DNA from: Candidatus Accumulibacter necessarius | GTDB taxonomy: Bacteria; Pseudomonadota; Gammaproteobacteria; Burkholderiales; Rhodocyclaceae | Direction of reading: 5' to 3' | Assembly: GCA_017302435.1 (NCBI GenBank) | Contig: JAFLDL010000001.1 | Span: forward strand, 167,848-231,847 | DNA length: 64,000 nt | Shown here: in pieces, positions 28,429-58,131 of the stretch | How positions within the stretch are numbered: the stretch's first letter is position 1 | Layout: every line of letters begins with the position of its first letter | Notes under the pieces: generated by a model | What the model was told of the DNA's origin: nothing | Database searches by the model: none | What the model saw: the letters and a program-made list of their open reading frames with translations, nothing else | Translations under genes and position numbers: made by a program

Positions 28429-29361
28429 TCAGCCGAGTTCCGCCTGCAGCGCCGGCAGGACTTCGAAGAGGTCGCCGACCAGGCCATAATCGGCGACCTG
28501 GAAGATCGGTGCTTCGGCGTCCTTGTTGATCGCGACGATCACCTTGCTGTCCTTCATCCCGGCCAGGTGCTGTATGGCACCCGAAATGCCGACCGCGATA
28601 TAGAGCTGCGGCGCGACGATCTTGCCCGTCTGGCCGACCTGGTAGTCATTCGATACGTAACCGGCATCCACCGCCGCACGCGAGGCGCCCAGGGCGGCCC
28701 CGAGTCTGTCGGCCAGCGGTTCGAGCAAGCGGTGAAAGTTCTCGCCGTTGCCCATGCCGCGACCACCCGACACGATCACCTTGGCAGCGGTCAGCTCCGG
28801 TCGTTCCGACTTGCTCAGTTCGCGACCAACGAGCTTGTTCTGGGCGAGATCGGGGCCGGCGCTCAGGTTCTCGATGCGCGCGCTACCCCCGTCGCCGGCG
28901 GCTTCGAAGGCCGTCGCCCGTACCGTGATGACCTTGACCGGGTCGGCCGACTGCACGGTGGCGACGACGTTGCCGGCGTAGATCGGGCGGACGAAGGTGT
29001 CGGCGGATTCGACGCCGATGATCTCGGAGATCTGCGCCACATCGAGCAGCGCGGCCACGCGCGGCATGAAGTTCTTGCCGCAGGTCGTCGCCGCCGCCAG
29101 CAGGTGAGTATGGCTTGCCGCATTGGCTACCACCAGCGCCGCCAGGTTCTCGGGTGACTGATCGGCGTAGTGCGGCGCGTCAGCGACCAGCACCTTGCTC
29201 ACGCCGGCCAGCCCTGCCGCGGCATCGGCGGCCGCGGCACAGGCGCTGCCGGCAACCAGCAGGTGAATCTCGCCCCCGATTTTCGTCGCCGCGGTGACGG
29301 CGTTGCGTGTCGCCGCCTTGATCGAGGTATGGTCGTGTTCAGCAATGACGAGAATGGCCAT
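28429..29361 (-). CDS. etfA: Electron transfer flavoprotein alpha subunit
   Basis: FAD-binding subunit of ETF, which takes electrons from acyl-CoA dehydrogenases and passes them to ETF:quinone oxidoreductase. The 310-residue protein has the N-terminal ETF domain ([10 protein letters not shown]...) and the C-terminal FAD domain with [10 protein letters not shown] and the signature [20 protein letters not shown]. It is 2 bases after etfB. Its position beside the methylsuccinyl-CoA dehydrogenase operon suggests it serves that enzyme. Confidence 0.97.
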
Positions 29362-29363
29362 GG

Positions 29364-30113
29364 TCAGATTACCTTTGCTTCAGTCTTGAGTTTCATCACC
29401 AGATCGGCCGCATCGGCCACCTTGATGCCTGCCGTTCGCTTCGGCGGTTCGGCGACCTTGAGTGTCTTCAGGCGCGGCGCGACATCGACCCCCAGCGTCG
29501 CCGGGTGGGTCGTCTCGAGCGGCTTCCTCTTGGCTTTCATGATGTTCGGCAGCGTCGCGTAGCGCGGTTCGTTGAGGCGCAGGTCGGCTGTCAGCACGGC
29601 TGGCAAGGGTACCTCGACGGTTTCCAGACCACCGTCGATCTCGCGCGTGACGGTCGCCAGCTGCCCGGCGACGACGATCTTCGAGGCGAAGGTTGCCTGC
29701 GGCCAGTTCATCAGCCCGGCCAGCATCTGCCCGGTCTGGTTGGCGTCGTCGTCGATCGCCTGCTTGCCGCACAGGACGATCTGGGGCTGCTCCTTCTCAC
29801 ACACCGCCTTGAGCAGTTTGGCGACCGCCAGTGGTTGCAGTTCGACATCGGTCTGGATCAGGATGCCGCGGTCGGCGCCAATCGCCATCGCCGTGCGCAG
29901 GGTCTCCTGGCAGTTGGCGATGCCCGCCGAAACGGCGATCACTTCCGTGGCAATACCGGCTTCTTTCAGACGCACCGCCTCTTCAATCGCGATCTCGTCA
30001 AAGGGGTTCATCGACATCTTCACGTTCGCCAGATCAACGTCGCTCGCGTCAGGCTTGACGCGAACCTTGACGTTGTAATCCACCACTCGTTTCACTGCAA
30101 CGAGGATCTTCAA
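29364..30113 (-). CDS. etfB: Electron transfer flavoprotein beta subunit
   Basis: AMP-binding subunit of ETF, 249 residues, with the family N-terminus [21 protein letters not shown] and the signature region [18 protein letters not shown]. The start codon is TTG, not ATG: TTG at 30113-30111 follows GGGAGAGAAAA and gives the exact family N-terminus, while no ATG fits. It is the first gene of the etfBA pair. Confidence 0.96.
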
Positions 30114-30272
30114 TTTTCTCTCCCTTATGACTCAGCCGGATCAGTTCCCGATAATCCTGTTTACGCCAGCAGACCGGCCGGAATGACCTTCGGCCGGGAC
30201 AACATCGACGGCCGTTCGCAGAGTGTCGAGCGTCACACTCCGGAGCACGATCGGCTGGCGCCCCGCCTGGGT

Positions 30273-30722
30273 TTACTTGCCTGCCGCTTCGCGCTTCTGC
30301 CGCGAGGTGGGCATCAATGTCGCCTCGCCATCAATGACCACCTTGTCACCGACGGTGCACACGGTATCGAGCACCACCCGGCACTTTTCAGCGATCACTT
30401 CCTTGACCGTCACCCTGGCATGGACAGTGTCGCCCGGACGTACCGGGGCGCGGAAGCGCAACGACTGGTTCATGTAAATCACGCCCGGACCGGGCAAACG
30501 ATTGCCCAGCACCGCTGAAATCAGGCTTGCGGACAACATGCCGTGCGCGATACGGCCGCCGAACATCGTGGTCTTGGCAAAGTCTTCATCCATATGAACC
30601 GCATTGACGTCGGTGGACACACCGGCGAACAGGACAAGGTCTGCGTCGGTAATGGTCTTGGCGATTTCTGCGCTCATGCCGACAGACAAGTCTTCTATGT
30701 CGTAACCGTTCTGGGGATTCAT
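30273..30722 (-). CDS. MaoC-like (R)-specific enoyl-CoA hydratase (PhaJ-like)
   Basis: The 149-residue hot-dog-fold protein has the hydratase-2 motif with catalytic Asp and His (DVNAVHMDEDFA, residues 38-49) and GGRIAHGMLSASLISA. Such enzymes interconvert crotonyl-CoA and (R)-3-hydroxybutyryl-CoA. Beside the ethylmalonyl-CoA operon it could feed crotonyl-CoA to Ccr from the PHB branch, but a role in PHA synthesis from fatty acids is equally possible. It lies alone, with about 250 bases before it and 160 after it free of genes; an inverted repeat at 30174-30197 follows. Confidence 0.85.
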   Translation of the reverse strand: MNPQNGYDIEDLSVGMSAEIAKTITDADLVLFAGVSTDVNAVHMDEDFAKTTMFGGRIAHGMLSASLISAVLGNRLPGPGVIYMNQSLRFRAPVRPGDTVHARVTVKEVIAEKCRVVLDTVCTVGDKVVIDGEATLMPTSRQKREAAGK

Positions 30723-30973
30723 GAAAGTCCTTTCTCGTAATCATCAGCGCGGAAATGGCCGCGCCCAGGGAAAGTGGCGCTTGCCAATGCCTGCGCCACT
30801 AGATTCTGTTGGAGGTTTCGGGAACCTGTGAGATGGGTGCGCTGCGGGGATCGTCATCTGAACCGAACCATCTGCAGTATCCTTGACACGTACATCTCCG
30901 TCAAGCGCCCATGGTTATCCGACAAGGCGCTGTCGATAGAGAACTGATCGAGTAGCGGGGCATTGGTAGCAGT

Positions 30974-31951
30974 TCAGCTGGCAGCAATGACGACCTTGCC
31001 GGTAGACTTGCGGCTCACCACCTGATCGAGCGCCTCAACCGCCTGCTTCAACGGATAGGTCGCAGAGACGTGCGGCTTGATCGAACCTGCCAGATACCAC
31101 TGAATCAGCGTCTGGAAACTCTCGGTCATCACCTCCGGATTCAACTCGGCATAGGCCGGCCAGTTCACTCCAATCACGTCCACATTCTTGACCAGCAGAT
31201 GATTGGCAGGGATCTGCGGTACGCTGCCACCGGCAAAGCCGATGACCAGGATGCGCCCTTCGAAGGCGATGCTGCGCAGCGAAGCGGTGAACAGCTCTCC
31301 GCCAACCGGATCGTAGACCACGTCGGCCCCTCGACCATCCGTTAACTCCTTTATCCTTGCCCGCACGTCCTCCTGGCTTGAATCAATCAGATGGTCCGCT
31401 CCGTGTTTACCAGCTACCTGCAGCTTGCCAGCGCTGCTGGCCGTCGCGATCACCGTCGCCCCCAGTTGCTTGCCGATAGCGACGGCGGTCAATCCGACGC
31501 CGCCAGATGCACCGTGCACCACCAGTGTTTCCCCCGCGCGCAGCCGTGCTCGATGCGACAGGGCGACATGCGAGGTGCCGAACACCACGGGAAAGGCAGC
31601 GCCGTGTTCCCACGACATCGCCGCCGGCATCGGCACGCAGCGCTTGCTGTCGGCGACAACCTGCTCGGCATAGCCGCCGTGCGGCGTGATGGCGATCACC
31701 CGATCGCCAGGCGCGATCCCGGTCACGCCGGCGCCCAGTTCGAGCACCTCACCGGAGACTTCAAAGCCGGGACTGAAGGGCGGCTGCGGTTGCTTCTGGT
31801 ATTGGCCACGGGTGATCAGGCTGTCGGCGAAATTGACTCCGCAGGCCCGGACGCCGATGCGCACCTGGCCGGGACCGGGGCGCGGCTCTGCAACCTCGGC
31901 CAGGCGCAACCCAGCTGGACCAACGAGTTCTTGGCAGACGATGGCTTGCAT
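30974..31951 (-). CDS. Zinc-independent NADPH:quinone oxidoreductase family protein
   Basis: The 325-residue medium-chain dehydrogenase/reductase begins MQAIVCQELVGP. It has the GroES-like domain (NFADSLITRGQYQ, FSPGFEVSGEVLELG) and a Rossmann domain with VVHGASGGVGLTAVAIGKQLGA. No zinc-ligand cysteines are seen, as in quinone oxidoreductase/crotonase-type members. It follows the ccr terminator. Its substrate is unknown; a role in reducing an unsaturated acyl-CoA or quinone is only a guess from the family. Confidence 0.88.
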   Translation of the reverse strand: MQAIVCQELVGPAGLRLAEVAEPRPGPGQVRIGVRACGVNFADSLITRGQYQKQPQPPFSPGFEVSGEVLELGAGVTGIAPGDRVIAITPHGGYAEQVVADSKRCVPMPAAMSWEHGAAFPVVFGTSHVALSHRARLRAGETLVVHGASGGVGLTAVAIGKQLGATVIATASSAGKLQVAGKHGADHLIDSSQEDVRARIKELTDGRGADVVYDPVGGELFTASLRSIAFEGRILVIGFAGGSVPQIPANHLLVKNVDVIGVNWPAYAELNPEVMTESFQTLIQWYLAGSIKPHVSATYPLKQAVEALDQVVSRKSTGKVVIAAS

Positions 31952-31976
31952 GTCAGCGAGTCCTCCATCGTTGAAG

Positions 31977-32016
31977 AAAAAAAGCCCTTCTCGGCCGCGA
32001 AGGATAAGAAGGGCTT
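31977..32016 (-). terminator. Rho-independent terminator after ccr
   Basis: On the minus strand a 10-bp perfect stem (AAGCCCTTCT / AGAAGGGCTT) with a 15-base loop is followed by a run of seven or more T. It ends the ethylmalonyl-CoA operon about 70 bases after ccr. Confidence 0.9.
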
Positions 32017-32085
32017 GATGCCTGTTCCCCCGCCCGGGGTCGGGCGGGGTGGCGCGAAGCGCCTGCTGGCCAGATCGAACGCCGA

Positions 32086-33840
32086 TTACTCGCCGATGAT
32101 CTTGCGCACGACGTCGGTCATCGAGATCACGCCGACCGGCTTCTCCTTCTCGGTGACCACCAGGCGGTGCATCCGGCGGCCCGTCATGAGGCTGACCGCA
32201 TCGCTCAACAGCATGTCCGCATCGCAGGTTGCGCAACCGGGGGTCATGACCTGGCTGGCCAGCATTGCGCGTGCCTGATCGGGTGTCCGGCCCTGCCGTG
32301 CCAGAACCATATCGGTTTGCGAGACGACGCCGATGGCTTTTCCTTGCGCATCCATCACCACCACGGCATGAATCTCCTTCTCCACCATGATCTTGGCCAC
32401 ACTGCCGATGGTATCGTCCGGCGTGCACGAGATGATGCCAAGATGCATCAGATCGCGAACCCTGCTGCCATCGTCGGCGACCGTGATCGGCTCGCCCTCC
32501 GCGATGCCCGGCAGCGGCGTGGACATCGGGTAAGGCGCTGGTGTGGTATGCACGTCGCCCTTGGGCAGTGTTGGATGCACCATCGCCACGGCCGGCTTGC
32601 CGCTGGCGCCCAGGCCGAACTCGGTGGCGCCAATCAGCACCGACATGTTGCCGTGTGGGTGTTTGTTGTCGTGCATCAAGAGATGGGCAAGCGGCAATTC
32701 TTCGTAGGTGAACGCCCGCGACAGGCATGGGTCAAGCTGGCCGCGCAGCGCCAGCTGGTTCATCTCGTTGCACTGATCGGCATTGGCGAAATGCGAACCT
32801 TGCAGGCGCTTCTGGCGCATCCATAGGTAGCGTAGATCGACCGTCGCATTGTAGCCGGAGGTGCCGGCGCAGACGACGACCATACCGCCAGTTTCGCAAA
32901 CGAAGATCGAGGTCGGGATGGTGCTTTCACCGGGATGTTCGAAAACGATGTTCGGCGCGCGCTTCTCACCCAGAACTTCCCAGATCTTTGCCCCGAACGA
33001 CCGCACCCCCTTCAACCACTTGGCGTAGCCGGCATTATCCTTCCAGTGCGGCAACATTCCCCAGTGATCGAAGTCGTTACGGTTGATGCAGCCCTTGGCC
33101 CCCAGTTTCATGCAGTAGTCAAACTTGTCTTCGCCTGACACCATGGCGACCGACGTCGCGCCGACCGCCTTGGCGATCTGAATTGCCATCGAGCCGAGAC
33201 CGCCCGCACCGCCCCAGATCAAGGCCACATCTCCCTTCTTGATCGAGCTGGCCCCCCAGCCATGCAGCATTCGCCAGGCAGTCGCCGCGACCAGCGTGTA
33301 GGCTGCCGCTTCTTCCCAGTTCATGTGCTTTGGCTTCGGCATGCACTGATGGCCTTGGACTCTTGTGAATTGGGCAAAACTGCCGAAATTGGTTTCGTAA
33401 CCCCAGATTTTGAAAGACGGCGAGTACATCGGATCGCCGCCACCCTTGACCCACGCGCAGTTGCGGTTCCATTGGCCGCAATGCATTACCACTTCGTCAC
33501 CGACCTTGACGTTGGTAACGTCCTTGCCGACGGCGTAAACGATGCCGGAAGCATCGCTGCCACCGATGTGGAAGTCCTCGGGTTCGCCACCCTTGTTGCG
33601 AGCGGCGATGACGTTCACCGGGATACCCAGTGCCGCCCAGACGTTGTTGTAGTTGATTCCCGCTGCCATGACATACACCAACACTTCGTCATCGGCGATA
33701 GACGGGGTATTGACGACTTCCTTCTGAAACGCCTCGGTTGGCTTGCCAAAGCGCTCCGGACGGATCAGCCAGGCATTCATTTTCTCCGGAACTTCGCCCA
33801 ACGGAGGTCTGTTGCCTATTGCATAGAGTTGCGTACTCAT
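32086..33840 (-). CDS. ccr: Crotonyl-CoA carboxylase/reductase with C-terminal CBS-domain pair
   Basis: Key enzyme of the ethylmalonyl-CoA pathway: reductive carboxylation of crotonyl-CoA with NADPH and CO2 to ethylmalonyl-CoA. Residues 1 to about 440 are a full Ccr. They include [12 protein letters not shown] (61-72), the CO2-pocket region [14 protein letters not shown], the NADPH Rossmann motif [17 protein letters not shown], and GSHFANADQ with the pocket His. About residues 459-584 form two CBS motifs ([40 protein letters not shown]), which bind adenine nucleotides or SAM in other proteins. Family members I know are about 430-450 residues and lack this. The ATG at 33840 has GGAG at a good distance. 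It is the last gene of the operon. Confidence 0.95.
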
Positions 33841-33850
33841 AAACATGCTC

Positions 33851-34870
33851 CTATCTGGTTGAGTTGCTCGATGATTTTCCCGAGGTGAATCGGGAAAGGA
33901 TGTGCATTCGCATACGTTCGTACTCGGCAAACTGATTACAACGATTTTCGCTCAGCCGCTGGTCGATGATGCCGTGACCACCAGCCAACTCCAGGCCAAA
34001 GGTGCCGAATTCCTCTTTCAGCAGACGCATGACCCAGGCACTCTGATGGCGGGAGCGCAGTTTTCCCAGCAAGCCCGCATCGGTGAGAAAGCTGCGGTGC
34101 CTGTCGAAATGGTCGAGGAATGGTTTGATGCCGGTATGCGTGGTGGCACTCACCAGACATACCGGGTAGTCCCAACCCTCCCGGCGATCCGGCCGGGAAG
34201 CGCTGCGGCCAAGCTCGCTGGCAGTCTTGTGCGCCGCGGCGCCAAGATCGGCCTTATTGACCGCAAAAATGTCCGGAATCTCGATGATGCCCGACTTGAG
34301 ATACTGGATCGTATCGCCCGAGGCCGGCTGCGCCACATAGCAGACCGTGTCGCCGATCTCCGCAATATCGATTTCGGTCTGGCCAACGCCGACTGTTTCG
34401 ATCACCACAATATCGAAACAGCCCAGCATCAGCCAACTCATCGGCCAGACCTCGGTCGCCACCCCACCCAGCTGACTGCGATTGGCCAGCGAACGAATGA
34501 ACAGGCCTTCGTCGTAAGACGAGTTCTTGATGCGGATGCGGTCCCCGAGCAAGGCGCCACCGCCCAGTTCGGGGCGACTCGACGGATCCACCGCCAGGAC
34601 GCCGACCGTCCGGCCGGCGAGCCGCCACTCGCGGATCATCGCGGCGACGAGCGATGACTTGCCGGCACCGGGCGGGCCGGTGACGCCGATGAGGTGGCCG
34701 TCGTTCAGCCAGCGCTCGCCCGAGAGCGACGCGAGCAGCCGCGCTGAACGGTCACGTGCCGCCGCCAGCTTGTTGTCGAGCAGGTTCAGCCCGCTGGCAA
34801 CCGCCGCCCGCTCCCCGCGCAGTATTCCTGACGCCAACTGCTCGGGGTCCGGAAGCTTGACCTCGGTCAT
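33851..34870 (-). CDS. meaB: MeaB/ArgK-type GTPase chaperone for a B12-dependent mutase
   Basis: G-protein chaperone that protects and reactivates adenosylcobalamin-dependent acyl-CoA mutases. The 339-residue protein has Walker [13 protein letters not shown], the switch region [32 protein letters not shown] and the NKAD guanine motif. It lies 10 bases after ecm and 10 bases before ccr, so its client is most likely the ethylmalonyl-CoA mutase next to it. Confidence 0.95.
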
Positions 34871-34880
34871 GGTCGATCCG

Positions 34881-36899
34881 TCAATTCATCGCCGGAAGTC
34901 GTTCGAGGCCGTTGCACTCCCGGATCACGTTGACCATATCCTCCATGATGGTATTGAGATTGAAATCCTTCGGCGTGTAGACGGCTCGCACGCCTAGCGA
35001 CGTCAGCTTTTCGGCATCCTCCGGCGGGATGATGCCACCGGCAATCACCGGCACATTTGCCAGATCCCGCAACCGCAGTTCCTGCAGAACCGATTCCACC
35101 AGTTCCATATGGCTTCCCGAAAGGATCGACAGACCGACCATATGCACGCCTTCCTCCTGCGCCGCCTGGGCAATCTGCTGCGGCGTCAGCCGAATGCCGT
35201 CGTAGACGACCTCGAAGCCGACATCCCTGGCCTTGACGGCGACCTGTTCCGCACCATTGGAATGTCCGTCGAGCCCCGGTTTGCCGACCAGCAGTTTCAG
35301 GGGCCGCCCGAGGGCAGCGCCGGTGCTCGCCACCCTTGCCCGGAGATCGGTGACCTGATCCCGCTTACCCAGCACTTCGCGGCTGTCGATGGCAATGTCG
35401 ATCCCGGTCGGTGGTCTGAACTCGCCGAACACCGCGCGCAGCGAATCGCCCCATTCGCCCGTGCTGACGCCCGCCAGGGCGCAGCGAATCGAACTGGGCA
35501 TGATGTTCTCGCCACTCCTGGCGGCGTCGGCAAGCCCCTGCAGGGCGGCACGGACGTCGTCGGCATTGCGGTTCTTTCGCTGCGCCTGCAGCCGTTCGAT
35601 CTGTTCGCGCTCGGCCGCCGGGTTGGTTTTCATGATCGCCCCGTCGCTGCCCAGGGTCAGCGGCGATACAGCCGTTTCCTGGAAGCAGTTGACCCCGATG
35701 ATCTTCAGATCGCCCGACTCGATGGCGCGCAAGCGGTTCATGTGGCTACCGACGAGTTCCCGCTTGATATAGCCCGATTCGATCGCGGCAATGATCCCGC
35801 CCTGGGCCTCGACGTTGTCGATTTCCGTTCGCGCACCCGCGATCAGTTCCCTGACCTTGGCGGCGATGACCGGCGAGCCATCGAGAATGTCCTCGTACTC
35901 GAGCAGATCGGTTTCGAAGGCCACCACCTGCTGCATCCGCAGTGCCCATTGCTGATCCCAGGGGCGCGGCAAGCCCATCGCCTCGTTCCAGGCGGGGAGC
36001 TGGATGGCGCGGGCTCGTGCGCCTTTCGAGAGCACCACCGCCAACATTTCCAGCACGATTCGCTGGACGTTGTTTTCCGGCTGCGGCTCGGTCAACCCGA
36101 GGGAGTTTACCTGCACGCCATAGCGGAACCGCCGCAGCTTGGGATCTTCAACCTTGTAGCGGGTCAGCGCCAGTTCGTCCCACATTTCTCCGAACGCCCT
36201 GAGCTTGCAGCACTCTTCGACGAAACGTATGCCGGCATTGACAAAGAAGGACATACGTTCGACGACCTGGGGAAACGCTGCCGGCTCGATCTCGCCGGAA
36301 GCCTTTACCCGATCAAGCACCGCCATCGCCGTGCACAGGGCATAAGCCAGTTCCTGCACCGGCGTGGCCCCCGCCTCCTGCAGGTGGTAACTGCAGATAT
36401 TGGTCGGATTCCACTTCGGCACCTGCTTGACCGTGTAGTTGATCGTATCCGCGATCAGGCGCATCGAGGGGCCTGGCGGATAGATATAGGTGCCACGCGA
36501 GAGATACTCCTTGATGATGTCGTTCTGGGTGGTACCGCTCAGTTTCTTCGCGTCGATCCCCCGGCGCTGCGCCAGACCGATATACAGCGACAATAACCAT
36601 GCCGCAGTCGCATTGATGGTCATTGACGTGTTCATCTGATCGAGCGGGATCTGATCGAACAACTGATCCATGTCCTCGATGGATGATATTGGCACGCCGA
36701 CCTTGCCGACTTCCCCCCTTGCCAGCGGACTGTCGGCATCGTAGCCGGTCTGCGTCGGCAGATCGAAGGCCACCGACAGTCCCGTCTGGCCTTTGGCGAG
36801 ATTGGTGCGATAGAGCGCGTTGGAGGCCTTGGCCGAGCTGTGACCGCTATAGGTCCGCATCAACCAGGGCTGATCCCGTTTTTTCTGGACGGCAACCAT
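34881..36899 (-). CDS. ecm: Ethylmalonyl-CoA mutase (adenosylcobalamin-dependent)
   Basis: Converts (2R)-ethylmalonyl-CoA to (2S)-methylsuccinyl-CoA. The 672-residue protein has the mutase barrel (LSVAFDLPTQTGYDADSP, ISSIEDMDQLFDQIPLDQMNTSMTIN) and the C-terminal B12 domain with the DGHSNG cobalt-ligand motif at 544-549. The single-chain size and the neighbouring ccr and mcd favour Ecm (MeaA) over methylmalonyl-CoA or isobutyryl-CoA mutase. It begins 2 bases after the upstream maoC gene. Confidence 0.95.
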   Translation of the reverse strand: MVAVQKKRDQPWLMRTYSGHSSAKASNALYRTNLAKGQTGLSVAFDLPTQTGYDADSPLARGEVGKVGVPISSIEDMDQLFDQIPLDQMNTSMTINATAAWLLSLYIGLAQRRGIDAKKLSGTTQNDIIKEYLSRGTYIYPPGPSMRLIADTINYTVKQVPKWNPTNICSYHLQEAGATPVQELAYALCTAMAVLDRVKASGEIEPAAFPQVVERMSFFVNAGIRFVEECCKLRAFGEMWDELALTRYKVEDPKLRRFRYGVQVNSLGLTEPQPENNVQRIVLEMLAVVLSKGARARAIQLPAWNEAMGLPRPWDQQWALRMQQVVAFETDLLEYEDILDGSPVIAAKVRELIAGARTEIDNVEAQGGIIAAIESGYIKRELVGSHMNRLRAIESGDLKIIGVNCFQETAVSPLTLGSDGAIMKTNPAAEREQIERLQAQRKNRNADDVRAALQGLADAARSGENIMPSSIRCALAGVSTGEWGDSLRAVFGEFRPPTGIDIAIDSREVLGKRDQVTDLRARVASTGAALGRPLKLLVGKPGLDGHSNGAEQVAVKARDVGFEVVYDGIRLTPQQIAQAAQEEGVHMVGLSILSGSHMELVESVLQELRLRDLANVPVIAGGIIPPEDAEKLTSLGVRAVYTPKDFNLNTIMEDMVNVIRECNGLERLPAMN

Positions 36900-36901
36900 G
36901 A

Positions 36902-46083: not shown

Positions 46084-46246
46084 ACACACATACCTCGCAG
46101 GTGAGGGAACAAGGAAAGGACACTTCAAACGACACGTTCGAAGTGCCCCCAGAGTTGGTGATCCGGACATCCACACCGGGCCACGGTGTTTCTTGCTCCT
46201 GCCGGTACAACAGGTCAGGAGCGGCAGACTTGGTCTTGCGGAGCGC

Positions 46247-48882: not shown

Positions 48883-48893
48883 CAGTGTTCTCC

Positions 48894-50147: not shown

Positions 50148-50736
50148 GTGCGGCCTCCTGGTGACGTGCTCCGGCGATTTCGTCCATCACGAACTGATAA
50201 GCCTCGCTGGCGGCAGCGATGTTGGCAATGGCGATCTTTTCCGGGAACTTGGCGTTGATGGCCTTGATCACCGACTCCAGCCGGATGAGACCGGACGCGG
50301 CGGCGAAGCCGGCCAGCAAGGGCACATTGGGCATCGGTCGGCCGACGTGCTTGCGGCTGAGTTCGGTGGCGGGAACCGTGCATAGTCTGTCCGCCGGCCA
50401 GTCACGGACATAATCACCGAGGCCCAGCTCGTCGAAAGTGCGGCTGGTGTTGATCAGGATGTAACCGCCTTTCTTCAGCCCCGAGAAGACGTCGACCTGG
50501 AGCAGCAGGGTCGGATCCTGAATGATCAGGGCATCGGGTTCCATGATCGGTTCGCGCAACCGGATCTCCTTGTCGGCGATGCGGCAGAAGGCGACGACAG
50601 GGGCACCGGTTCGTTCCGAACCGAAACTCGGGAAGGCCTGAGCGTGGCGGCCCTCCTCAAACGCAGCAATCGACAACATCTCGGCAGCCGTAACCACGCC
50701 TTGGCCGCCGCGACCGTGTATTCGGACCTGGAACAT
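50140..50736 (-). CDS. porG: Pyruvate:acceptor oxidoreductase gamma subunit
   Basis: The 198-residue protein has the family signature MFQVRIHGRGGQGVVTAAEMLSIAAFEEG and FPSFGSERTGAPVVAFCRI. It is the first gene of the por operon; GGAGG stands 5 bases before the ATG, and a candidate promoter lies 40-70 bases upstream. Confidence 0.93.
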   Translation of the reverse strand: MFQVRIHGRGGQGVVTAAEMLSIAAFEEGRHAQAFPSFGSERTGAPVVAFCRIADKEIRLREPIMEPDALIIQDPTLLLQVDVFSGLKKGGYILINTSRTFDELGLGDYVRDWPADRLCTVPATELSRKHVGRPMPNVPLLAGFAAASGLIRLESVIKAINAKFPEKIAIANIAAASEAYQFVMDEIAGARHQEAAHA

Positions 50737-50985: not shown

Positions 50986-52044
50986 CTACGCTCTTCTCGG
51001 TATCAGCACCGTATAGTCGAAGTCGAGCAGCACGCTCGGGTCATAGCGGCCATCGATGGTCTTGTAGGGAAACTCGGCGCAGGGCTGGTCCTTGGTCGCC
51101 ACGGTGCGCAGGCGGAGCGCCCCGAGATCATTGCGTCCCGGCAGGTCGACCCGGTCGATGACTTCCGACCAGGCGTAGATCGTATCGCCGGCAAAGGCCG
51201 GGGCGACGTGCCGGCCGCCGTTGATCGCCGCGACGCTGAAAGCGTTGGCCAGCCCGTTGAAGGAAAGCGAGCGCGCCAGGCTGATGATGTGACCGCCATA
51301 GATGATCCGGCGGCCGAAGCGCCCGGCTTTTTCCGCCTGCTGGTTGAAGTGCACGCGAGCGGTGTTCTGGTACAGGCGAGTGGCCATCATGTGCTCGCTT
51401 TCTTCGATGGTCATGCCGTCCACGTGGTCGATGCGTTCGCCGACCTGATAGTCGTCCCACAGGTCAGGGCTACCTGACAGGGCCTGGTCATACTGTTCGA
51501 TCCTGATACCGGTCGGAACGATCAGATCGCTTGCCGCCACAGCAGTGGGAAGATCGGGCACGACGGCTTCCGGCGCTGGCGATTGCGGGTCACGCTTGCG
51601 AACCATGACCCAGCGGCAATAGTCGAGGGCGATCTGCCCACGCTGATTGACGCCGCAGGAGCGCACAAAAACGATGCCGGTTTTGCCATCGCTGTTCTCT
51701 TTCAGGCCAATCACCGTCGAATCGGCGCTGAGCGTATCACCCGGATAGACCGGGTGGCCAAAACGGCCGGCCGCGTAGCCGAGGTTGGCGACGGCATTGA
51801 GCGAGATGTCCGGTACGGTCCGGCCAAAGACCATGTTGAAGGCAAGCAGGTCGTCGACCGGGGCGCGCGGAAAGCCCAGGCTGTGGGCGAATGTGTCAGC
51901 TGAATTGGTGGCAAAGCGCGTGCCGGTCAGCGCGGTGTACAGCGCCACGTCGCCCTCGGTGATGGTTCGCGGTGTCGCGTGGGCAATCGCCTGCCCAACG
52001 TGGAAGTCCTCAAAGAAATTACCCAGTCTGGTCTTTTCGCTCAC
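50986..52044 (-). CDS. mch: Mesaconyl-C1-CoA hydratase (beta-methylmalyl-CoA dehydratase)
   Basis: Interconverts (2R,3S)-beta-methylmalyl-CoA and mesaconyl-C1-CoA. The 352-residue double hot-dog protein begins with the family text GNFFEDFHVGQAIAHATPRTITEGDVALYTALTG and carries FPRAPVDDLLAFNMVFGRTVPDISLNAVANLGYA, then IIYGGHIISLARSLSFNGL. I recall the Rhodobacter and Chloroflexus Mch proteins as nearly the same over these stretches. It is the last gene of the smtA-smtB-mct-mcl-mch run, 33 bases after mcl. Confidence 0.93.
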   Translation of the reverse strand: MSEKTRLGNFFEDFHVGQAIAHATPRTITEGDVALYTALTGTRFATNSADTFAHSLGFPRAPVDDLLAFNMVFGRTVPDISLNAVANLGYAAGRFGHPVYPGDTLSADSTVIGLKENSDGKTGIVFVRSCGVNQRGQIALDYCRWVMVRKRDPQSPAPEAVVPDLPTAVAASDLIVPTGIRIEQYDQALSGSPDLWDDYQVGERIDHVDGMTIEESEHMMATRLYQNTARVHFNQQAEKAGRFGRRIIYGGHIISLARSLSFNGLANAFSVAAINGGRHVAPAFAGDTIYAWSEVIDRVDLPGRNDLGALRLRTVATKDQPCAEFPYKTIDGRYDPSVLLDFDYTVLIPRRA

Positions 52045-52077
52045 TTGACTTTCTCCCCGCGCGCTTTAATAAAGAGT

Positions 52078-53121
52078 CTACAGGCCATAGGCTGCCGCCA
52101 GTTCAGGATCTCGCCTGGCCACCAGCCGCGCCAGGTCGACGATGACCTTGGCCTGTTTCCAGGTCGCATCGTCCTGCATCTTGCCGTCTATCGTCGCCAC
52201 GCCGCTGCCATCGGGCATGGCTTCAAGGATGCGTTTGGCAAACAGCACTTCCTTGACGTCGGGGCTGAAAACACGCTTGGCAATGGCGATCTGGTTCGGT
52301 GCCAGCGACCAGGCGCCCGAGCAACCCATCAGGAAGGCGTTGCGGAACTGAGCTTCGCAGGCCGCTTCGTCCTTGAGATCGCCGAACGGACCGTAAAAGG
52401 AGCGCAGGCCATGCGCCACGGCCGCATCGACCATGCGCGCCACGGTGTAGTGCCAGAGATCCTGCTGGAAGAACGCGCGCCGCTCGTGGCCTTCTTCCGG
52501 GTCGGCGAGGACGCCGTAGCCGGGATGTCCGCCACCAACGCGGGTCGTCTTCATGCCGCGCGAGGCGGCGAGGTCGGCCGGGCCGAGGCTCAAGCCGTGC
52601 ATGCGCGGGCTGGCGCCGCAAATGGCCTCGACGTTGGTCACGCCCTGCGCCGTCTCGAGCAGGGCGTGCAACAGAATCGGCTTGCGGATGGCGTACTTCG
52701 CTTCCAGCAGGGCGACATATTGATCGACAAAATGGATGTCCCATGGCCCCTCGACCTTGGGAATCATGATTACATCGAGTTTGTTGCCGACGTGCTTGAT
52801 GATCTGCTCAAGGTCGTCGAGGACCCACGGGCTGTTCAAGGCATTGATGCGCACCCACATCGCGGTATCGGCGAAATCGTGATTGCTCAGGAGGTCGATG
52901 AAGCCGGCGCGCGCCGCGTCCTTGGACTCGATCGGGATGGCATCCTCGAGGTTGCCGCACATCACGTCGCATTGCCGCGCGGTTTCGGGTGCCTTGGCAC
53001 GGATCTTGTCGATGTGCGGGGGAAAGAAATGGATCATCCTTTCCGGCCTGACCGGCAGTTCACGCAGGGGCTGAGGGGCGCCAATGGCGAGCGGCTTGTA
53101 GAAGTGTACTGGTAGCTTCAT
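52078..53121 (-). CDS. mcl: Malyl-CoA / beta-methylmalyl-CoA / citramalyl-CoA lyase
   Basis: HpcH/CitE-fold lyase, 347 residues. Motifs such as [72 protein letters not shown] and [20 protein letters not shown] match what I remember of the Chloroflexus trifunctional enzyme. That enzyme cleaves malyl-CoA, makes beta-methylmalyl-CoA from glyoxylate and propionyl-CoA, and cleaves citramalyl-CoA to pyruvate and acetyl-CoA. Being beside mct, smtAB and meh supports the trifunctional reading. A strong hairpin lies between mct and this gene. Confidence 0.92.
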
Positions 53122-53163
53122 GGGGCAATTTCCCTGGTCAAAAGAAAGCAGTTGGATTCTTGG

Positions 53164-53192
53164 ACGGCCGCGGAGCCTTTACCCGCGGCCGT
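53164..53192. repeat. Strong hairpin in the mct-mcl intergenic gap
   Basis: A 10-bp perfect GC-rich stem (ACGGCCGCGG / CCGCGGCCGT) with a 9-base loop begins directly after the mct stop codon and about 43 bases before mcl. No T-run follows on the minus strand, so an RNA-processing or stabilising element is as likely as a terminator. Confidence 0.6.
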
Positions 53193-53193
53193 T

Positions 53194-54414
53194 TCACTTG
53201 GGTCCGGCGACGACGCGCGCGTCGTGCAGGCGGCCGACTTCGGCTTCGCTCAAGCCGAGGATGTCGAGGAGAATCTGATCGGTGTGCTCGCCCAGTCTGG
53301 GCGCCGGTGTCGCCGGCAGGCGAGGCAGGCGGCCGAAGTCGAGCGGCGTCGTCGGCATCAGGTAGGTGCCGATGCCGGGTTGTTCAGTCAGCGTGAACAG
53401 CGGATTATCGGTCGAGCAATCGGGGTCAGTGGCAATTTCTTCGCGCACGCTGCGATAGGGGCCCCAGGTGACGCCGTGCGCATCGAGGGTCAGCGCGGCT
53501 TCGGCCAGCGTACGGGCGTGGAACCACGGTTCGAGCAGCCTGGCGATCTCCTGGCGGGCGCGATAGCGATCGCCCTCGTCTTCGAAATCGAGGCCCAGCC
53601 GGGCAGCGAGCGCGGCGACCGGCTCGCGGAGACCGGTGGCCTTGGTCAGGCGGCGCCACTGCATGCCGGTCAGGGCGACGACCATCAGGCGCTTGCCGTC
53701 GAGCGTTGCGAAGTCACGGCCAAAAGCGCCGTAGAGGTAGTTGCCCTGCCGTGGTCGGTCGGTGTCGTTGACCATCGCTTCAGCAAGCATGCCGAAATTG
53801 CCGAGCATTGCCAGCGCCACGTCCTTCAGCGCCAGGCGAACGAGTTGTCCTTCGCCGGTCAGCCGCCGGTGCCTTTCGGCCGCGAGCAGACCCAGCGCGA
53901 TCATCTGGCCGCTGATGAAGTCCCAGGCCGGAAAGACGTGGTTCACCATCTCCGGCGAAGTATTTGGCCCGGTCATCATTGGCAGGCCCATCTGCGGGTT
54001 CAGCGTGTAATCCACCTCCGAGCTGCCGTCGCGGCGCCCGGTCAGGTTGACCATGATCAGATCCTGACGTTGCGCTTGCAGCGCTTCGTAAGCCAGCCAG
54101 CCCTTGGCCGGAAAGTTGGTGCTGAACAGGCCGGCGCCTTCGCCCGGGGCACAGATCAGCTGAGTCAGCAGCTCCTGTCCGCGTGGCAGCCGGAAATCGA
54201 CGGCGATCGAGCGTTTGCCCTTGTTCAGGCCGGCCCAGAACAGGCTGTGCTTGCCGTCGAGAGTCAGTGGCCAGCGGCCATAGTCGAGACCGCCGCCGAT
54301 CGGGTCGAAACGGATGACCTCGGCGCCTAGCTGGGCGAGCGTCATGCCGCCCAGCGGCGCAGCGACAAAGGCCGAGCCCTCGATCACCCGCAGACCCTTG
54401 AGAATTCCTTCCAC
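53194..54414 (-). CDS. mct: Mesaconyl-CoA C1-C4 CoA transferase
   Basis: Class III (CaiB/BaiF) CoA transferase, 406 residues, that moves CoA within mesaconate from C1 to C4. The start EGILKGLRVIEGSAFVAAPLG, then NLTGRRDGSSEVDYTLNPQMG, and GQLVRLALKDVALAMLGNFGM agree with the Chloroflexus Mct as I recall it. The likely catalytic Asp is in VFPAWDFISG. Its position between smtB and mcl is the same as remembered for Chloroflexus. This step, with Meh, distinguishes the 3-hydroxypropionate bicycle from the ethylmalonyl-CoA pathway. Confidence 0.9.
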   Translation of the reverse strand: MEGILKGLRVIEGSAFVAAPLGGMTLAQLGAEVIRFDPIGGGLDYGRWPLTLDGKHSLFWAGLNKGKRSIAVDFRLPRGQELLTQLICAPGEGAGLFSTNFPAKGWLAYEALQAQRQDLIMVNLTGRRDGSSEVDYTLNPQMGLPMMTGPNTSPEMVNHVFPAWDFISGQMIALGLLAAERHRRLTGEGQLVRLALKDVALAMLGNFGMLAEAMVNDTDRPRQGNYLYGAFGRDFATLDGKRLMVVALTGMQWRRLTKATGLREPVAALAARLGLDFEDEGDRYRARQEIARLLEPWFHARTLAEAALTLDAHGVTWGPYRSVREEIATDPDCSTDNPLFTLTEQPGIGTYLMPTTPLDFGRLPRLPATPAPRLGEHTDQILLDILGLSEAEVGRLHDARVVAGPK

Positions 54415-54439
54415 TTTCTTCCCCCCAATCCAGCTGCGT

Positions 54440-55669
54440 TCAGATCACGCGCTTGCGGCGCAACTCTTCGATTTCGGCGGCATCCATGCCCAGCAGGTCC
54501 GCGAGCACTTCGTCGGTGTGCTGCCCGAGCTTCGGTCCGAGGTGCTTGATTCGTCCCGGCGTTGCCGACAGCCGCGGCAGCACCGCGGGCACGATGACCG
54601 TCTCGCCAATGTCCTCCTCGTCGATCGCCACCAGATTGCGCCGGGCGTGAAACTGCCGGTCGCCGAAGATGTCTGCGATGCTGTTCAGTGGGCCGGCCGG
54701 TGCGCCTGCGGCAAAGCAGCGATTGAGGAGTTCCTCGCGATGCAGCGAACCACACCAGTCGCGGACGATCTCGTTCACGTCATGGCGGTTTTCCAGCCGC
54801 GTCTTCTGGTCGCCGTAGACGTGCGCCGCCGCCAGTTCAGGTCGGCCCATGGCAATCGCCAGACGTTCGAAGAGCTTGTCGGTGACGCACGAAATCGCCA
54901 CCCACTTGCCGTCGTCCTTGGTCGGGAAATGACCATGCGGGCAGGCAAAGTCGTTGTGCGTCGGCCCGTGCCGTTCGCGTATCCGTCCGAACATCCCGTA
55001 GGCCGGCGCCAGTTCGTCGGTGCAGCGAAACACGGACTCGTAAAGCGCGGCATCGATGTACTGCCCCTGACCGGTGCGCTCGCGGTGGCGCAGGGCCATC
55101 AGAATGCCGATGCAGCCGTAAAGACCGGTGAGGTAATCGCCGAGGGTCGTCGAACCCGGCGTCACCGGCGTTCCCCTCGGCATGCCGGCGAGAAAGGCGA
55201 TACCACCGACGGCGTGCGCGACGCGGGCAAAGCCGGGTCGATCGCGGTAGGGCCCGGTCTGGCCGTAGCCGGTGACGCGCAGCATGATCAGGCCGGGATT
55301 GATCTTGCGCAGCACCTCCCAGCCGAGTCCCCACTTTTCCAGGGTGCCGGGCCGGAAGTTCTCGCACAGCACGTCCGACTTCTCGATCAGCTGCTTGAAC
55401 AGCTCGACGCCTTCGGGCAGGTGCAGGTCGATCGTCACCGATTTCTTGTTGCGTGCTTCGCTGAGCCAGGCCAGGGTGTCCTTGCGCTTGGTCGGCGTGC
55501 CGAAGTAACGCATCGGGTCGCCGCCAACCGGGTTTTCGACCTTCAATACCTCGGCGCCAAATTCGCTCAGAATGGTGGCGCTGTAGGGCGCAGCGATCAC
55601 CGTCGCGGCATCGATGACGCGGATGCCGGCAAGTGGCAGCCGGGCCTCGGCCTGATCAGTGGTGGTCAT
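54440..55669 (-). CDS. smtB: Succinyl-CoA:malate CoA transferase, subunit (SmtB-like)
   Basis: Class III CoA transferase, 409 residues. The N-domain is [36 protein letters not shown], and the catalytic Asp lies in [13 protein letters not shown]. It has the [13 protein letters not shown] and [15 protein letters not shown] patterns. Next to a paralogue of similar sequence it probably forms the two-subunit enzyme that makes malyl-CoA from malate. Which of the two is called A or B is from memory and could be swapped. The ATG at 55669 leaves 22 bases to the upstream gene. Confidence 0.85.
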
Positions 55670-55691
55670 GGAAGCACTCGCTATGGTCCGT

Positions 55692-57035
55692 TCAGATGAT
55701 CTTGTGTTGCCGCAGCCGCTTGATTTCCTGCGCCGAGATCCCGAGCAGCTCGCGCAGGATTTCATAGGTCGCATTGCCCAGCGGTGGTCCGAGATTCGAA
55801 ATCCTGCCCGGCGTTTCGGACAGCGTCGGCACAACGCCCGGGATGACCACTTCACCCAGGCCTTCTTCCTGCAGACGGACGAGATTGCCACGGGCCTGGA
55901 AATGCTCGTCCTCGAAGATGTCGGCGATGCTGTTGACCTTGCCAATCGGCACTTCGCCGTCGATGCAGCGCTTCATCACCTCGTTGCGGGTCAAGGAGCC
56001 GACCCATTCGATGACCATGCGGTTGACCTCGTCGCGTGCCGCCAGGCGCTTCCGCTGGTGGCCATAGCAATCGGCAGCAGCCAGTTCCGGTTTGCCCATC
56101 ACCGCGGCGAAGCGTTCGAACATCTTGTCGGTGGTGCACGCGATGGCCACCCACTTGTCGTCGACGGTGCGGAAATGCCCGTGCGGAACGGCGACGAAGC
56201 TGCCGGCGCCCTCGCGTTCGCGGACCTTGCCGAAGAGGCCGTAAGCGGCGGCGATTTCGTCCATCTGGCGGAAGACCGCCTCGTAGATGCCGATGTCGAT
56301 GATCTGGCCTTCGCCGCTCGCCTCGCGGTGGCGCAATGCCAGGAGGATGCCGATCGCGCCGTAGAGACTGGACAGGTAATCACCCATCGGCGCGGTGCCG
56401 GGGACTACCGGCGTCTCGCCGGGGAAGCCGGCGAGGTAGGAGAGCCCGGCGAAACCATGCGCGATGTGCGCGAAGCCCGAACGCCGGCGATACGGCCCGG
56501 TCTGCCCGTAGCCCGAGACGCGCAGCATCACCAGGCCGGGGTTGGCCTTGCTCAGCGCATCCCAGCCGAGTCCCCACTCCTCCATCGTACCGGGACGGAA
56601 GTTCTCGATCAGCACATCGGACTTGGCGACCAGTTTGAGGAAAAGATCGACCCCTTCCTGCTGGCGGAGGTCGAGGGTCACCGACTTCCGGTTGCGGCCT
56701 TCGCTGAGCCAGGCCAGCGTCGCATCATGGCGTTTCGACGCGGTGCCGAAACGGCGCATCGGGTCACCGGCGATCGGGTGCTCGACCTTGAGGATTTCGG
56801 CACCGAATTCGCCGAGGATCGACGCGGCATAGGGGCCGGCCAGAAAGGTGCCAACGTCGATCACGCGCAGGCCGCTCATCGGCAGCTGGTCGTTTTCGCT
56901 CGACCGCTCCAGGTCGGGGTCGTCCTCCCGCGATGGCCCGCCGGGGGACGCAACCCTGGCCGGCGCTTCCTTCGCACCGGTGGCAAGGCCAGGCGGCAGC
57001 GAGGCGGACCTGGTCGAACCTGCTCCCTCTTTCAT
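55692..57035 (-). CDS. smtA: Succinyl-CoA:malate CoA transferase, subunit (SmtA-like)
   Basis: Class III CoA transferase, 447 residues. After a low-complexity, charged N-terminal extension of about 50 residues the domain begins [33 protein letters not shown]. The catalytic Asp lies in [13 protein letters not shown], and the end is [15 protein letters not shown]. Translation could also start at the internal Met just before SGLRVID. It is the first gene of the smtA-smtB-mct-mcl-mch run and is divergent from meh. Confidence 0.87.
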
Positions 57036-57068
57036 GGTCGTTTCTCCCGACGGCAGCGCCAGAAAACC

Positions 57069-57122
57069 GATCAGTTCCTGATCCCAAAACCGACACGGCG
57101 CCGGCGCAAGGGCGACAGTATA
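57069..57122. promoter_or_regulatory. Operator-like palindrome and -10 in the smtA leader region
   Basis: GATCAGTTCCTGATC (57069-57083) is a perfect dyad (GATCAG / CTGATC with a three-base centre) in the shared smtA-meh region. TATACT on the minus strand (57122-57117) is a good -10 for smtA, though no clear -35 precedes it. The palindrome would lie downstream of that start, where a repressor could block it. Confidence 0.45.
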
Positions 57123-57208
57123 CGAGCAATCGGGTGCCGCTGGCGCAAAGATCTGAGCCTTGCGGGGTATCGGCTCCGCGGTCGTGTGCCGAAACCGGTC
57201 TGGCTGCG

Positions 57209-57217
57209 TGCTATGCT
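57209..57217 (+). promoter_or_regulatory. Possible extended -10 promoter of meh
   Basis: TGCTATGCT is an extended -10 element about 45 bases before the meh ATG; no matching -35 is seen. Confidence 0.35.
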
Positions 57218-57261
57218 GTCACGGTGAATTGCTTCCGGAAATCCGCGAAAGGATCGTTTTC

Positions 57262-58131
57262 ATGACTGATGCAAGCGAAGATTACGCCGCATGGATCGGC
57301 CGCCAGGAAGTCACTGACGATGACCTGTGTCTGGCGCCCGCCCTGGCGGCGGCGGCGATGTTCGATGACACCTCGACGACTTTCGCGATGGGTAGTCCGC
57401 TGCCGCCCGTGTGGCATTGGTTCTACTTTCTTCCCCGGGCGCCGCAGGCGCTGCTCGGCGTCGACGGGCACCCGCAGCGTGGTGGCTTCATGCCGCCGAT
57501 CCCCTATCCGCGACGGATGTTTGCCGGCGCACGCATGCGTTTCCACCGTCCGCTCCTGATCGGCCAGCCGGCGAGGCGTGAGGCGATCATTCGCGATATC
57601 CGGCTCAAGTCCGGACGCTCCGGCGCACTCGCCTTTGTTTCCGTCCTCTGCCGTTTTCACCAGGAGGGCCGGCTGTGTATCGAAGAGGAACAGGACATCG
57701 TCTATCGTGAACCCGGACCAGCGGTGGCCAGCCCGCGCGTGCTCGACTGGTCGCCGCTACCGGCAGGCGCCTGCTCCCGCATCGTCACGCCGGATCCCAA
57801 GTTGCTGTTTCGCTTCTCGGCATTGACCTTCAACGCGCATCGGATTCATTACGACCGTCCCTACGCAATCGACGAGGAAGGTTACCCGGGCCTGGTCGTG
57901 CACGGCCCGCTGACCGCCGTGCTGCTGATGGAAGTGCTGCGGCAGCAGGTGGTGGCGCAGCCGGTGAGCGAGTTCAGCTTCCGCGGGCTGGCACCGCTCT
58001 TCGATCTGGCACCGTTCCGGCTGGTGTGTACACCGGAGGATGGCGGGTTTTCGCTTGAGGCGCAGGCACCGGACGGCACGACCGCGATGAGCGCGCGGGC
58101 GGCGATCGCCAACGGCTTGCCAGCCGGGTGA
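57262..58131 (+). CDS. meh: Mesaconyl-C4-CoA hydratase
   Basis: The 289-residue MaoC/HTD2-like hot-dog protein has the pattern DASEDYAAWIGRQEVTDDDL, LPPVWHWFYFLP and MPPIPYPRRMFAGARMRF. The catalytic region is FSALTFNAHRIHYDRPYA, and GYPGLVVHGPLTAVLLMEVL follows. This fits Meh, which hydrates mesaconyl-C4-CoA to (S)-citramalyl-CoA, though the same subfamily includes other acyl hydratases. Its place beside smtAB and mct makes Meh the best reading. The ATG at 57262 has GAAAGGA 8 bases before it. It is the only gene of this module on the plus strand. Confidence 0.85.
   Translation: MTDASEDYAAWIGRQEVTDDDLCLAPALAAAAMFDDTSTTFAMGSPLPPVWHWFYFLPRAPQALLGVDGHPQRGGFMPPIPYPRRMFAGARMRFHRPLLIGQPARREAIIRDIRLKSGRSGALAFVSVLCRFHQEGRLCIEEEQDIVYREPGPAVASPRVLDWSPLPAGACSRIVTPDPKLLFRFSALTFNAHRIHYDRPYAIDEEGYPGLVVHGPLTAVLLMEVLRQQVVAQPVSEFSFRGLAPLFDLAPFRLVCTPEDGGFSLEAQAPDGTTAMSARAAIANGLPAG

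Follow-up and report, generated by a model that had tools for sequence, protein, structure and literature searches.

A stretch of 64,000 nucleotides from the genome of Candidatus Accumulibacter necessarius (assembly GCA_017302435.1, contig JAFLDL010000001.1, positions 167,848 to 231,847; hereafter referred to as the window) carries the genes of the ethylmalonyl-CoA pathway (EMC), except that of the epimerase, next to those of the second half of the 3-hydroxypropionate bi-cycle (hereafter referred to as the half-bicycle). This gene content makes it plausible that a route from acetyl-CoA and CO2 to pyruvate is encoded in Accumulibacter. The proposal that the two gene sets form a branched C5-CoA hub, from which mesaconyl-C1-CoA leaves either to propionyl-CoA and glyoxylate or to acetyl-CoA and pyruvate, is held tentatively, the case being finely balanced. 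The EMC array is encoded on the minus strand at 28.4-41.3 kb (etfA, etfB, phaJ, qor, ccr, meaB, ecm, mch, mcd and the gene of a DUF6986 protein), and is followed on the same strand, at 42.0-57.0 kb, by a second array (tgt, ppdK, porD, porB, porA, porC, mch, mcl, mct, smtB and smtA); meh, unlike both arrays, lies on the plus strand. All the genes named in an earlier, sequence-only reading of this DNA were recovered between positions 28429 and 58131. The same interval also holds etfAB, phaJ, qor, DUF6986, tgt, porDBAC and ppdK, which that reading did not mention.

In the proposed route, crotonyl-CoA from polyhydroxybutyrate (PHB) or acetate would be carboxylated by Ccr and then converted by an epimerase, Ecm/MeaB and Mcd with EtfAB to mesaconyl-C1-CoA. 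One exit, that of the classical EMC, would proceed through Mch and Mcl to propionyl-CoA and glyoxylate. In the other, Mct would produce mesaconyl-C4-CoA, Meh would hydrate it to (S)-citramalyl-CoA, and Mcl, acting here as well, would cleave this product to acetyl-CoA and pyruvate, the net reaction being acetyl-CoA + CO2 + 2 NADPH + quinone -> pyruvate + quinol. Algebraically, the pyruvate exit equals the sum of the EMC and the half-bicycle, since the reactions of Mch and of the beta-methylmalyl-CoA lyase, opposite in direction, cancel out; the two lyases are described as acting in opposite directions in the part of PMC3832036 available. PpdK, together with Por operating in either direction, would join pyruvate to phosphoenolpyruvate (PEP) and glycogen or to acetyl-CoA. 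As the electrons of Mcd go to a flavoprotein and quinone and an acceptor is needed, the pyruvate exit would belong to the aerobic phase (PHB to pyruvate, to PEP by PpdK, to glycogen), and the propionyl-CoA exit to the anaerobic phase. The observations comprise the gene content, its linkage, the catalytic residues, the lack of smtAB in half of the genus and the position of meh; from these we infer the activities, their direction and a meaningful flux through the pyruvate exit, most plausibly during the aerobic PHB-to-glycogen phase.

Linkage and composition of the gene sets in the genus

The source genome (G000; 4.56 Mb in 88 contigs, with the window at the end of contig 1) was compared with 27 further Accumulibacter genomes. 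Mct was found in 27 of the 28 genomes and Ccr in 23. In 16 of the 23 ccr-bearing genomes, among them the two that consist of a single contig (G018 and G131), ccr and mct were located on one contig, with 6.2-19.4 kb between them. The clusters were also linked in G122, in which DUF6986 and part of mcd lie with mct at a contig end, and in G145, in which the EMC operon lies on one contig with meh and smtA, near the contig end, giving 18 linked genomes of 23; the two genes were on separate contigs in G079, G121, G133, G134 and G140. This linkage is more than chance, since it recurs across the genus, although the genomes are related and the 18 cases are therefore not independent events. Three layouts were observed among the 16 genomes: the EMC operon was divergent from the mct operon in 13, collinear upstream of it in two (G129 and G141) and collinear downstream of tgt in the window. 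Synteny was compared in 24 genomes, including that of the window (G121, G123 and G133 lie outside this set, and G145 is represented by its EMC side only). The gene following the second mch was porC in 20 of these 24 genomes, the window included; no por followed it in G079 and G125, and no second mch was found in the fetched stretches of G137 and G134. Mct is rare in the sampled family beyond this genus: a search of 121 genomes drawn from a larger group yielded three passing the Mct cut-off, all of them Accumulibacter. The mct of G144 appears to be split into two partial matches (L065, 14600-15900), in a genome that does have ccr, smtAB, mcl and meh.

In Chloroflexus, the half-bicycle is fed by SmtAB, which makes malyl-CoA. 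No SmtB match was obtained at E<=1e-110 in 14 of the 28 Accumulibacter genomes. Thirteen of these 14 carry mct, 12 of those 13 carry ccr, and meh is present in 12 of the 14; the exceptions are G123, without Mct, Ccr, SmtB or Meh, and G132 (83% complete), with Mct and no Ccr. Eleven smt-less genomes had unbroken sequence over the site, nine with no trace of smt and two (G124 and G132) with decayed fragments. Both mcl and mch adjoined mct in 10 of the 11 smt-less genomes fetched, the exception being G137. At least six changes in smt state were counted on a tree of 23 genomes, which was built from genes of the cluster itself (mct, mcl, mch, porA and porB), has 8 of 20 inner branches starred for support and does not distinguish smt loss from gain. 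Ratios of nonsynonymous to synonymous substitution rates (dN/dS) were estimated for those genes in the fetched stretches whose match spanned 80% of the gene or more (mct from 23 genomes, meh from 17 and ccr from 8, the window included; the broken G144 mct was dropped). All four genes of the lower module are under purifying selection among smt-less genomes: median values were 0.153 (mct), 0.050 (mcl), 0.119 (mch) and 0.168 (meh) in this group, and 0.112, 0.043, 0.111 and 0.154, respectively, among smt-bearing genomes, the pairs compared including time preceding the loss of smtAB. Most smt-less genomes thus retain the lower module although SmtAB no longer feeds it, as a rule alongside the EMC, a pattern that fits a putative direct feed of mesaconyl-C1-CoA from Mcd.

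The position of meh also varies. In most loci of Accumulibacter, as in those of Roseiflexus and Chloroploca, it diverges from smtA or mct, but in six genomes (G122, G124, G127, G131, G133 and G138) it is found on the EMC strand, downstream of phaJ. The distance from the phaJ stop to the meh start is 0 nt in G127 and 1 nt in G131; in G122, G124, G133 and G138, meh starts 0.35-0.83 kb past phaJ, directly behind a TAG codon. In G124, this codon is the stop of a truncated copy of phaJ (51% match); the arrangement in the other three is similar by eye. Five of the six genomes constitute one supported clade, which points to a single move of meh into the EMC operon; the sixth, G133, is outside the tree. 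Given that, to our knowledge, the hydration of mesaconyl-C4-CoA is the sole role of Meh, this position provides the most direct genomic hint that the two pathways may be coupled.

The DUF6986 gene adjoins mcd in all 18 EMC operons for which the mcd end was fetched, including the window and G125, in which the copy is split, and it is under purifying selection (dN/dS about 0.08). Its profile matched that of the Mcl family with a probability of 95.4 over 97 columns, and Glu255 and Asp289 of its CitE-like core align with the Mcl metal ligands, making the protein a candidate lyase or thioesterase. This reading rests on the profile comparison and motifs, because the AlphaFold2 model (17 sequences, 87-97% identity) was poor, with a mean predicted local distance difference test score of 52.5. 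The protein is unnamed in the literature searched.

Assignment of the enzymes

By their structure and profile matches, Mct and Mcl are of the Chloroflexus type, with the published catalytic residues conserved except for one substitution in Mct. At the sequence level, Mcl scored 663 bits against 4l7z/4l80, the former of which we take to be the tri-functional lyase described for Chloroflexus, versus 185 bits against the malyl-CoA lyase 4l9y. Its residues Glu156 and Asp183, invariant among 13 lyases, correspond to the metal ligands Glu157 and Asp184 of PMC3832036. The available part of that paper terms the Chloroflexus lyase tri-functional and indicates that it cleaves (S)-citramalyl-CoA efficiently, formation of this compound being possible even with the Rhodobacter lyase. 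No second Mcl match was found in G000 at E<=1e-30, and each of the three Accumulibacter genomes searched had one Chloroflexus-type Mcl, which would therefore serve both pathways, unless DUF6986 does so. Meh matched the itaconyl-CoA hydratase 8khg/8huc with 231 bits, the closest structure in a search that found no solved Meh, and gave a 68% match to the meh product of Roseiflexus locus L088. The product of itaconyl-CoA hydratase is (S)-citramalyl-CoA. The part of PMC12290011 available agrees on this product. Mct, the intramolecular mesaconyl-CoA transferase, exceeded the TIGR04253 equivalog cut-off and could be aligned over its full length with 8apq, the structure of the Chloroflexus enzyme. 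Its catalytic and cork residues D165, L43, R47, Y136, F101 and R75, to which PMC9813914, in the part available, ascribes the intramolecular transfer (as Asp165, Leu43, Arg47, Tyr136, Phe101 and Arg75), were invariant across 10 aligned sequences. The sole exception was the CoA-site Arg104 (PMC9813914 numbering), replaced by Lys in the window protein; the same source reports the Chloroflexus Mct to be fast. Both smtA and smtB are present in the window.

For the EMC, Ccr scored 561 bits against TIGR01751 (cut-off 379). Its C-terminal tail contains two CBS stretches, such that adenylate control of carboxylation is possible; by eye, a similar tail is found in Defluviicoccus, Contendobacter and other mct-positive relatives, but not in L197. 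Mcd, with 557 aa, has an N-terminal extension, its core beginning at about residue 157, and gave 8ciw as its best match. Ecm was tentatively assigned from its operon position and its score of 521 bits, under the methylmalonyl-CoA mutase cut-off of 876; its listed structural matches are other mutases, and G000 has two further mutases elsewhere, in open frames of 746 aa and 1100 aa. Among the fetched stretches, G079 alone had no EMC mch between ecm and mcd; in this genome (A. aalborgensis; L067, 9500-14800), only the half-bicycle mch was seen.

The proposed route and its alternatives

Several observations weigh against the pyruvate exit as the main use of these genes. Malate synthase and isocitrate lyase were found in 28 of 28 genomes, so glyoxylate could be formed and consumed without the cluster, also where smtAB is gone, and isocitrate lyase could be an alternative glyoxylate source for smt-less genomes. 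The EMC mch, whose step the pyruvate exit does not need, is constrained (dN/dS 0.10-0.11) and, as this applies to both mch copies, the propionyl-CoA and glyoxylate exit is presumably used somewhere. Four of the 27 Mct-positive genomes lack ccr, and in three genomes (G135, G142 and G143) the module is retained together with SmtB although Ccr is missing. The modules are sometimes incomplete, as shown by the broken mct of G144 and the lack of a meh match in G121, and smt-less G137 has no mcl or mch beside mct, in a search limited to the locus. No ethylmalonyl-CoA epimerase was present among the annotated genes of the window, and none of the 28 genomes exceeded the TIGR03081 cut-off; the candidate is a 42-47-bit match in 27 of them, the best in G000 (43.5 against a cut-off of 115) being a PF13669 Glyoxalase_4 protein (114 bits). 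The available part of PMC12604563 implies the same gap, in that it credits Propionivibrio, and not Accumulibacter, with an epimerase gene, and it reads EMC transcription as a propionyl-CoA/redox route. An argument from complementarity between ccr and SmtB was dropped: among 22 good-quality mct-positive genomes, two lacked ccr, 10 lacked SmtB and none lacked both, a result arising by chance in about 29% of cases. The conversion of crotonyl-CoA and CO2 to acetyl-CoA and pyruvate put forward in the sequence-only reading survives in part: the enzymes are encoded together, with a candidate epimerase elsewhere, and the genus patterns of smtAB and meh fit, but its exclusive "glyoxylate-free" character was too strong, since the genomes retain mch, malate synthase and isocitrate lyase, and the propionyl-CoA and glyoxylate exit is therefore also available.

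Two ordinary pathways might instead operate side by side, with the EMC yielding propionyl-CoA and glyoxylate, as a redox sink and source of polyhydroxyvalerate (PHV) precursor, and the half-bicycle at other times joining propionyl-CoA with glyoxylate, supplied by SmtAB/Mcl or by isocitrate lyase, to give pyruvate and acetyl-CoA. This explanation, which we consider a genuine if rather doubtful possibility, accounts for the constraint on both mch genes where present, the presence of SmtB in 14 of 28 genomes, the window's included, the universal isocitrate lyase and malate synthase, and the three genomes with SmtB and no Ccr; furthermore, meh/smtAB/mct/mcl/mch clusters without a Ccr match exist in Chloroflexi, Gemmatimonadetes and most of the Burkholderiales-type relatives searched. 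It sits poorly with the disappearance of smtAB from half of the genus while the remainder is kept, mostly next to the EMC, with meh inside the EMC operon in six genomes and with the single Mcl in each of the three genomes searched for it. The two pathways would also have one common pool of mesaconyl-C1-CoA, on which a fast Mct such as that of Chloroflexus (PMC9813914, available part) would act. 

We consider it unlikely that the lower part runs in reverse, from pyruvate and acetyl-CoA through citramalyl-CoA and mesaconyl-C4/C1-CoA to propionyl-CoA and glyoxylate, making anaerobic PHV precursors from glycogen-derived pyruvate in a manner resembling the citramalate cycle. That cycle is known from purple bacteria (PMC8307300, available part), Por and PpdK are encoded in the same array, and the lyase steps are reversible (PMC3832036, available part), as are the others in principle, but the same part of PMC3832036 places the equilibrium strongly towards cleavage, the Chloroflexus lyase synthesising citramalyl-CoA only with a large excess of pyruvate, and the adjacent ccr-ecm-mcd operon would be left without a role. 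It is very improbable that the EMC operon is autonomous, with DUF6986 serving it as a dedicated lyase or thioesterase, while the enzymes of the half-bicycle are reserved for propionate assimilation. The constant place of DUF6986 beside mcd in 18 of 18 operons, its purifying selection and its CitE-like core with the metal-ligand Glu and Asp favour such a role, but its match with Mcl spans 97 columns only, the structure model is poor, the activity is putative and the location of meh in the EMC operon would be left unexplained.

The proposed branched hub resembles several known systems. It has ccr, ecm, meaB, mcd, mch, etfAB and a lyase in common with the ethylmalonyl-CoA pathway, but the lyase here is of the Chloroflexus type and encoded in the neighbouring operon, Ccr has a CBS tail, and Mct and Meh provide a second exit. 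The order and orientation of meh, smtA, smtB, mct, mcl and mch are those of the bi-cycle second half in Roseiflexus L088 and Chloroploca L091, whereas here porCABD-ppdK follows, the EMC operon is joined and smtAB is gone in half the genus. The THETA and CETCH cycles are engineered assemblies rather than natural loci, and the THETA cycle goes on to citramalyl-CoA. They have mesaconyl-C1-CoA as an intermediate in common with the window route (PMC10249356, available part). Methylsuccinate utilisation in itaconate clusters, as described in the available part of PMC12290011, differs from the window route in starting from methylsuccinate, without carboxylation, and in having a C4-CoA-specific dehydrogenase, so that no Mct is needed.

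The chemistry of the net route is not new: an artificial design that appeared in 2021, the reductive citramalyl/ethylmalonyl-CoA pathway, already contains it (PMC10521678, section 3.4, Fig. 5 and Table 1). Its net reaction, acetyl-CoA + HCO3- + 2 NADPH + ubiquinone (UQ) -> pyruvate + 2 NADP+ + UQH2 + CoA (-39 +/- 9 kJ/mol), and its intermediates are identical to those proposed here. The design was computed, and its section 3.4 names no natural host, whereas the window contains linked natural genes, which also provide further exits (through two copies of Mch and through SmtAB) as well as Por/PpdK. The claim that the hybrid route was unreported can thus be retained for Accumulibacter in the literature searched, and not for the net route itself. 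That literature, mostly without subscription papers, contained no report joining the EMC and the half-bicycle in Accumulibacter, or of the net route in nature: in their available parts, PMC6593406 and PMC9813914 name half-bicycle genes in Accumulibacter and PMC12604563 describes EMC transcription, with "mesacon", "citramal" and "hydroxypropionate" all absent from the text available. It is possible, if slightly doubtful, that Accumulibacter runs the designed pathway naturally, as an O2-tolerant, ferredoxin-free carboxylation of acetyl-CoA leading from PHB to pyruvate, PEP and glycogen, with SmtAB shed in half the genus and Meh taken into the EMC operon of one lineage. If this flux were real, a key organism of biological phosphorus removal would convert PHB and CO2 to pyruvate, which the available part of PMC12604563 does not mention, and a carbon-fixation module conceived by design would be matched by one that evolved in nature, its enzymes ready for use. 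The question of why Accumulibacter transcribes EMC genes beside the glyoxylate shunt, an interplay called unclear in the same part of PMC12604563, also becomes testable. The genus is a natural experiment in this respect, as some of its genomes have smtAB and others lack it, and the same is true of ccr.

Gene content of the window and relatives outside the genus

The coordinates of the genes are given below. The phaJ product is the probable link between (R)-3-hydroxybutyryl-CoA and crotonyl-CoA. The products of porCAB and the GltD-PorD fusion (46247-50736) probably constitute an NAD(P)H-linked pyruvate oxidoreductase.

Table 1. Genes of the two arrays and meh in the window, with the matches on which their assignment is based.
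Gene	Product	Position	Strand	Match or remark
etfA	electron transfer flavoprotein alpha, likely Mcd acceptor	28429..29361	-	PF01012/PF00766
etfB	electron transfer flavoprotein beta	29364..30113	-	PF01012
phaJ	phaJ-like MaoC (R)-enoyl-CoA hydratase	30273..30722	-	PF01575 91 bits; function from size, context and family
qor	PIG3-type NAD(P)H oxidoreductase	30974..31951	-	TIGR02824 257 bits, under cut-off 297
ccr	crotonyl-CoA carboxylase/reductase, C-terminal CBS pair	32086..33846	-	TIGR01751; start inferred inside open reading frame (ORF) 32086-33930
meaB	mutase-associated GTPase	33851..34870	-	PF03308 213 bits
ecm	putative ethylmalonyl-CoA mutase, by operon context	34881..36899	-	PF01642 and B12-binding
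mch (EMC copy)	mesaconyl-C1-CoA hydratase	36902..38083	-	PF19315 69 bits
mcd	(2S)-methylsuccinyl-CoA dehydrogenase	38149..39822	-	8ciw 626 bits
DUF6986	CitE-like protein	39874..41316	-	PF22484 582 bits
ppdK	pyruvate phosphate dikinase	43351..46080	-	TIGR01828 1335 bits; start inferred inside ORF 43351-46299
porD	GltD-like flavoprotein fused to PorD-type ferredoxin domain	46247..47869	-	PRK12771, TIGR02179
porB	pyruvate:acceptor oxidoreductase beta	47869..48882	-	PRK11865 334 bits, under cut-off 405
porA	pyruvate:acceptor oxidoreductase alpha	48894..50147	-	PF01855, PF17147
porC	pyruvate:acceptor oxidoreductase gamma	50140..50736	-	TIGR02175 199 bits
second mch (half-bicycle)		50986..52044	-	4e3e 573 bits; 8hgn beta-methylmalyl-CoA dehydratase 486 bits
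mcl	Chloroflexus-type malyl/beta-methylmalyl/(S)-citramalyl-CoA lyase	52078..53121	-	4l7z 663 bits
mct		53194..54414	-	TIGR04253 854 bits, over cut-off 725; 8apq 732 bits
smtB		54440..55660	-	PF02515 389 bits; 75% to Roseiflexus locus L088
smtA		55692..57035	-	PF02515 368 bits; 78% to Roseiflexus locus L088
meh	putative mesaconyl-C4-CoA hydratase	57262..58131	+	8khg 231 bits; start inferred inside ORF 57160-58131

Outside the genus, a contig scan gave at least 559 confirmed candidate relatives of Mct, the best 80 of which were kept. Several gene contexts were seen among these 80. Roseiflexus, Chloroploca, Gemmatimonadetes and Burkholderiales have the half-bicycle set, whereas Defluviicoccus (L097) and the similar assembly L098 have an mct-meh pair. 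In Contendobacter and its kin (12 loci), mct lies with meh-like and CitE-like genes, and in 12 loci, mostly of marine gammaproteobacteria, it lies near an Mcd-like gene. Ccr was sought in the genomes of 50 of the 80 loci and found in 16, in 15 of them above the cut-off, including those of two other polyhydroxyalkanoate-storing sludge bacteria, Defluviicoccus and Contendobacter (4 of 5 records); the EMC of these two has been described with no mention of citramalyl-CoA in the available parts of PMC9041414 and PMC8956781. Defluviicoccus was rejected as a case of mct-meh without smtAB, SmtB-like proteins (77%) being encoded elsewhere in the genomes of L097 (G152) and L098 (G153). The gammaproteobacterial metagenome-assembled genome G151 has ccr, mcl-mct-meh and mch, and gave no SmtB match. 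The 12 loci with Mct and an Mcd-like dehydrogenase (55-58% to that of the window; L119, L120, L122, L124, L129, L140, L141, L145, L146, L155, L156 and L158) were not adopted as an independent hybrid: no Ccr match was found in the eight genomes searched (L140, L146, L155 and L156 lying outside the search), and thiolase-like proteins and a short-chain dehydrogenase occur with the Mct homologues (about 60%) near the Mcd-like gene in L119 (6307-11209) and L141 (6305-11227), so that the cluster looks like another catabolic pathway. In Contendobacter L154 (5638-12510), smtA-smtB, a meh-like hydratase gene (39%), a CitE/RipC-like lyase gene, mct and a cobyrinate diamide synthase gene stand in a row, in a genome that has Ccr.

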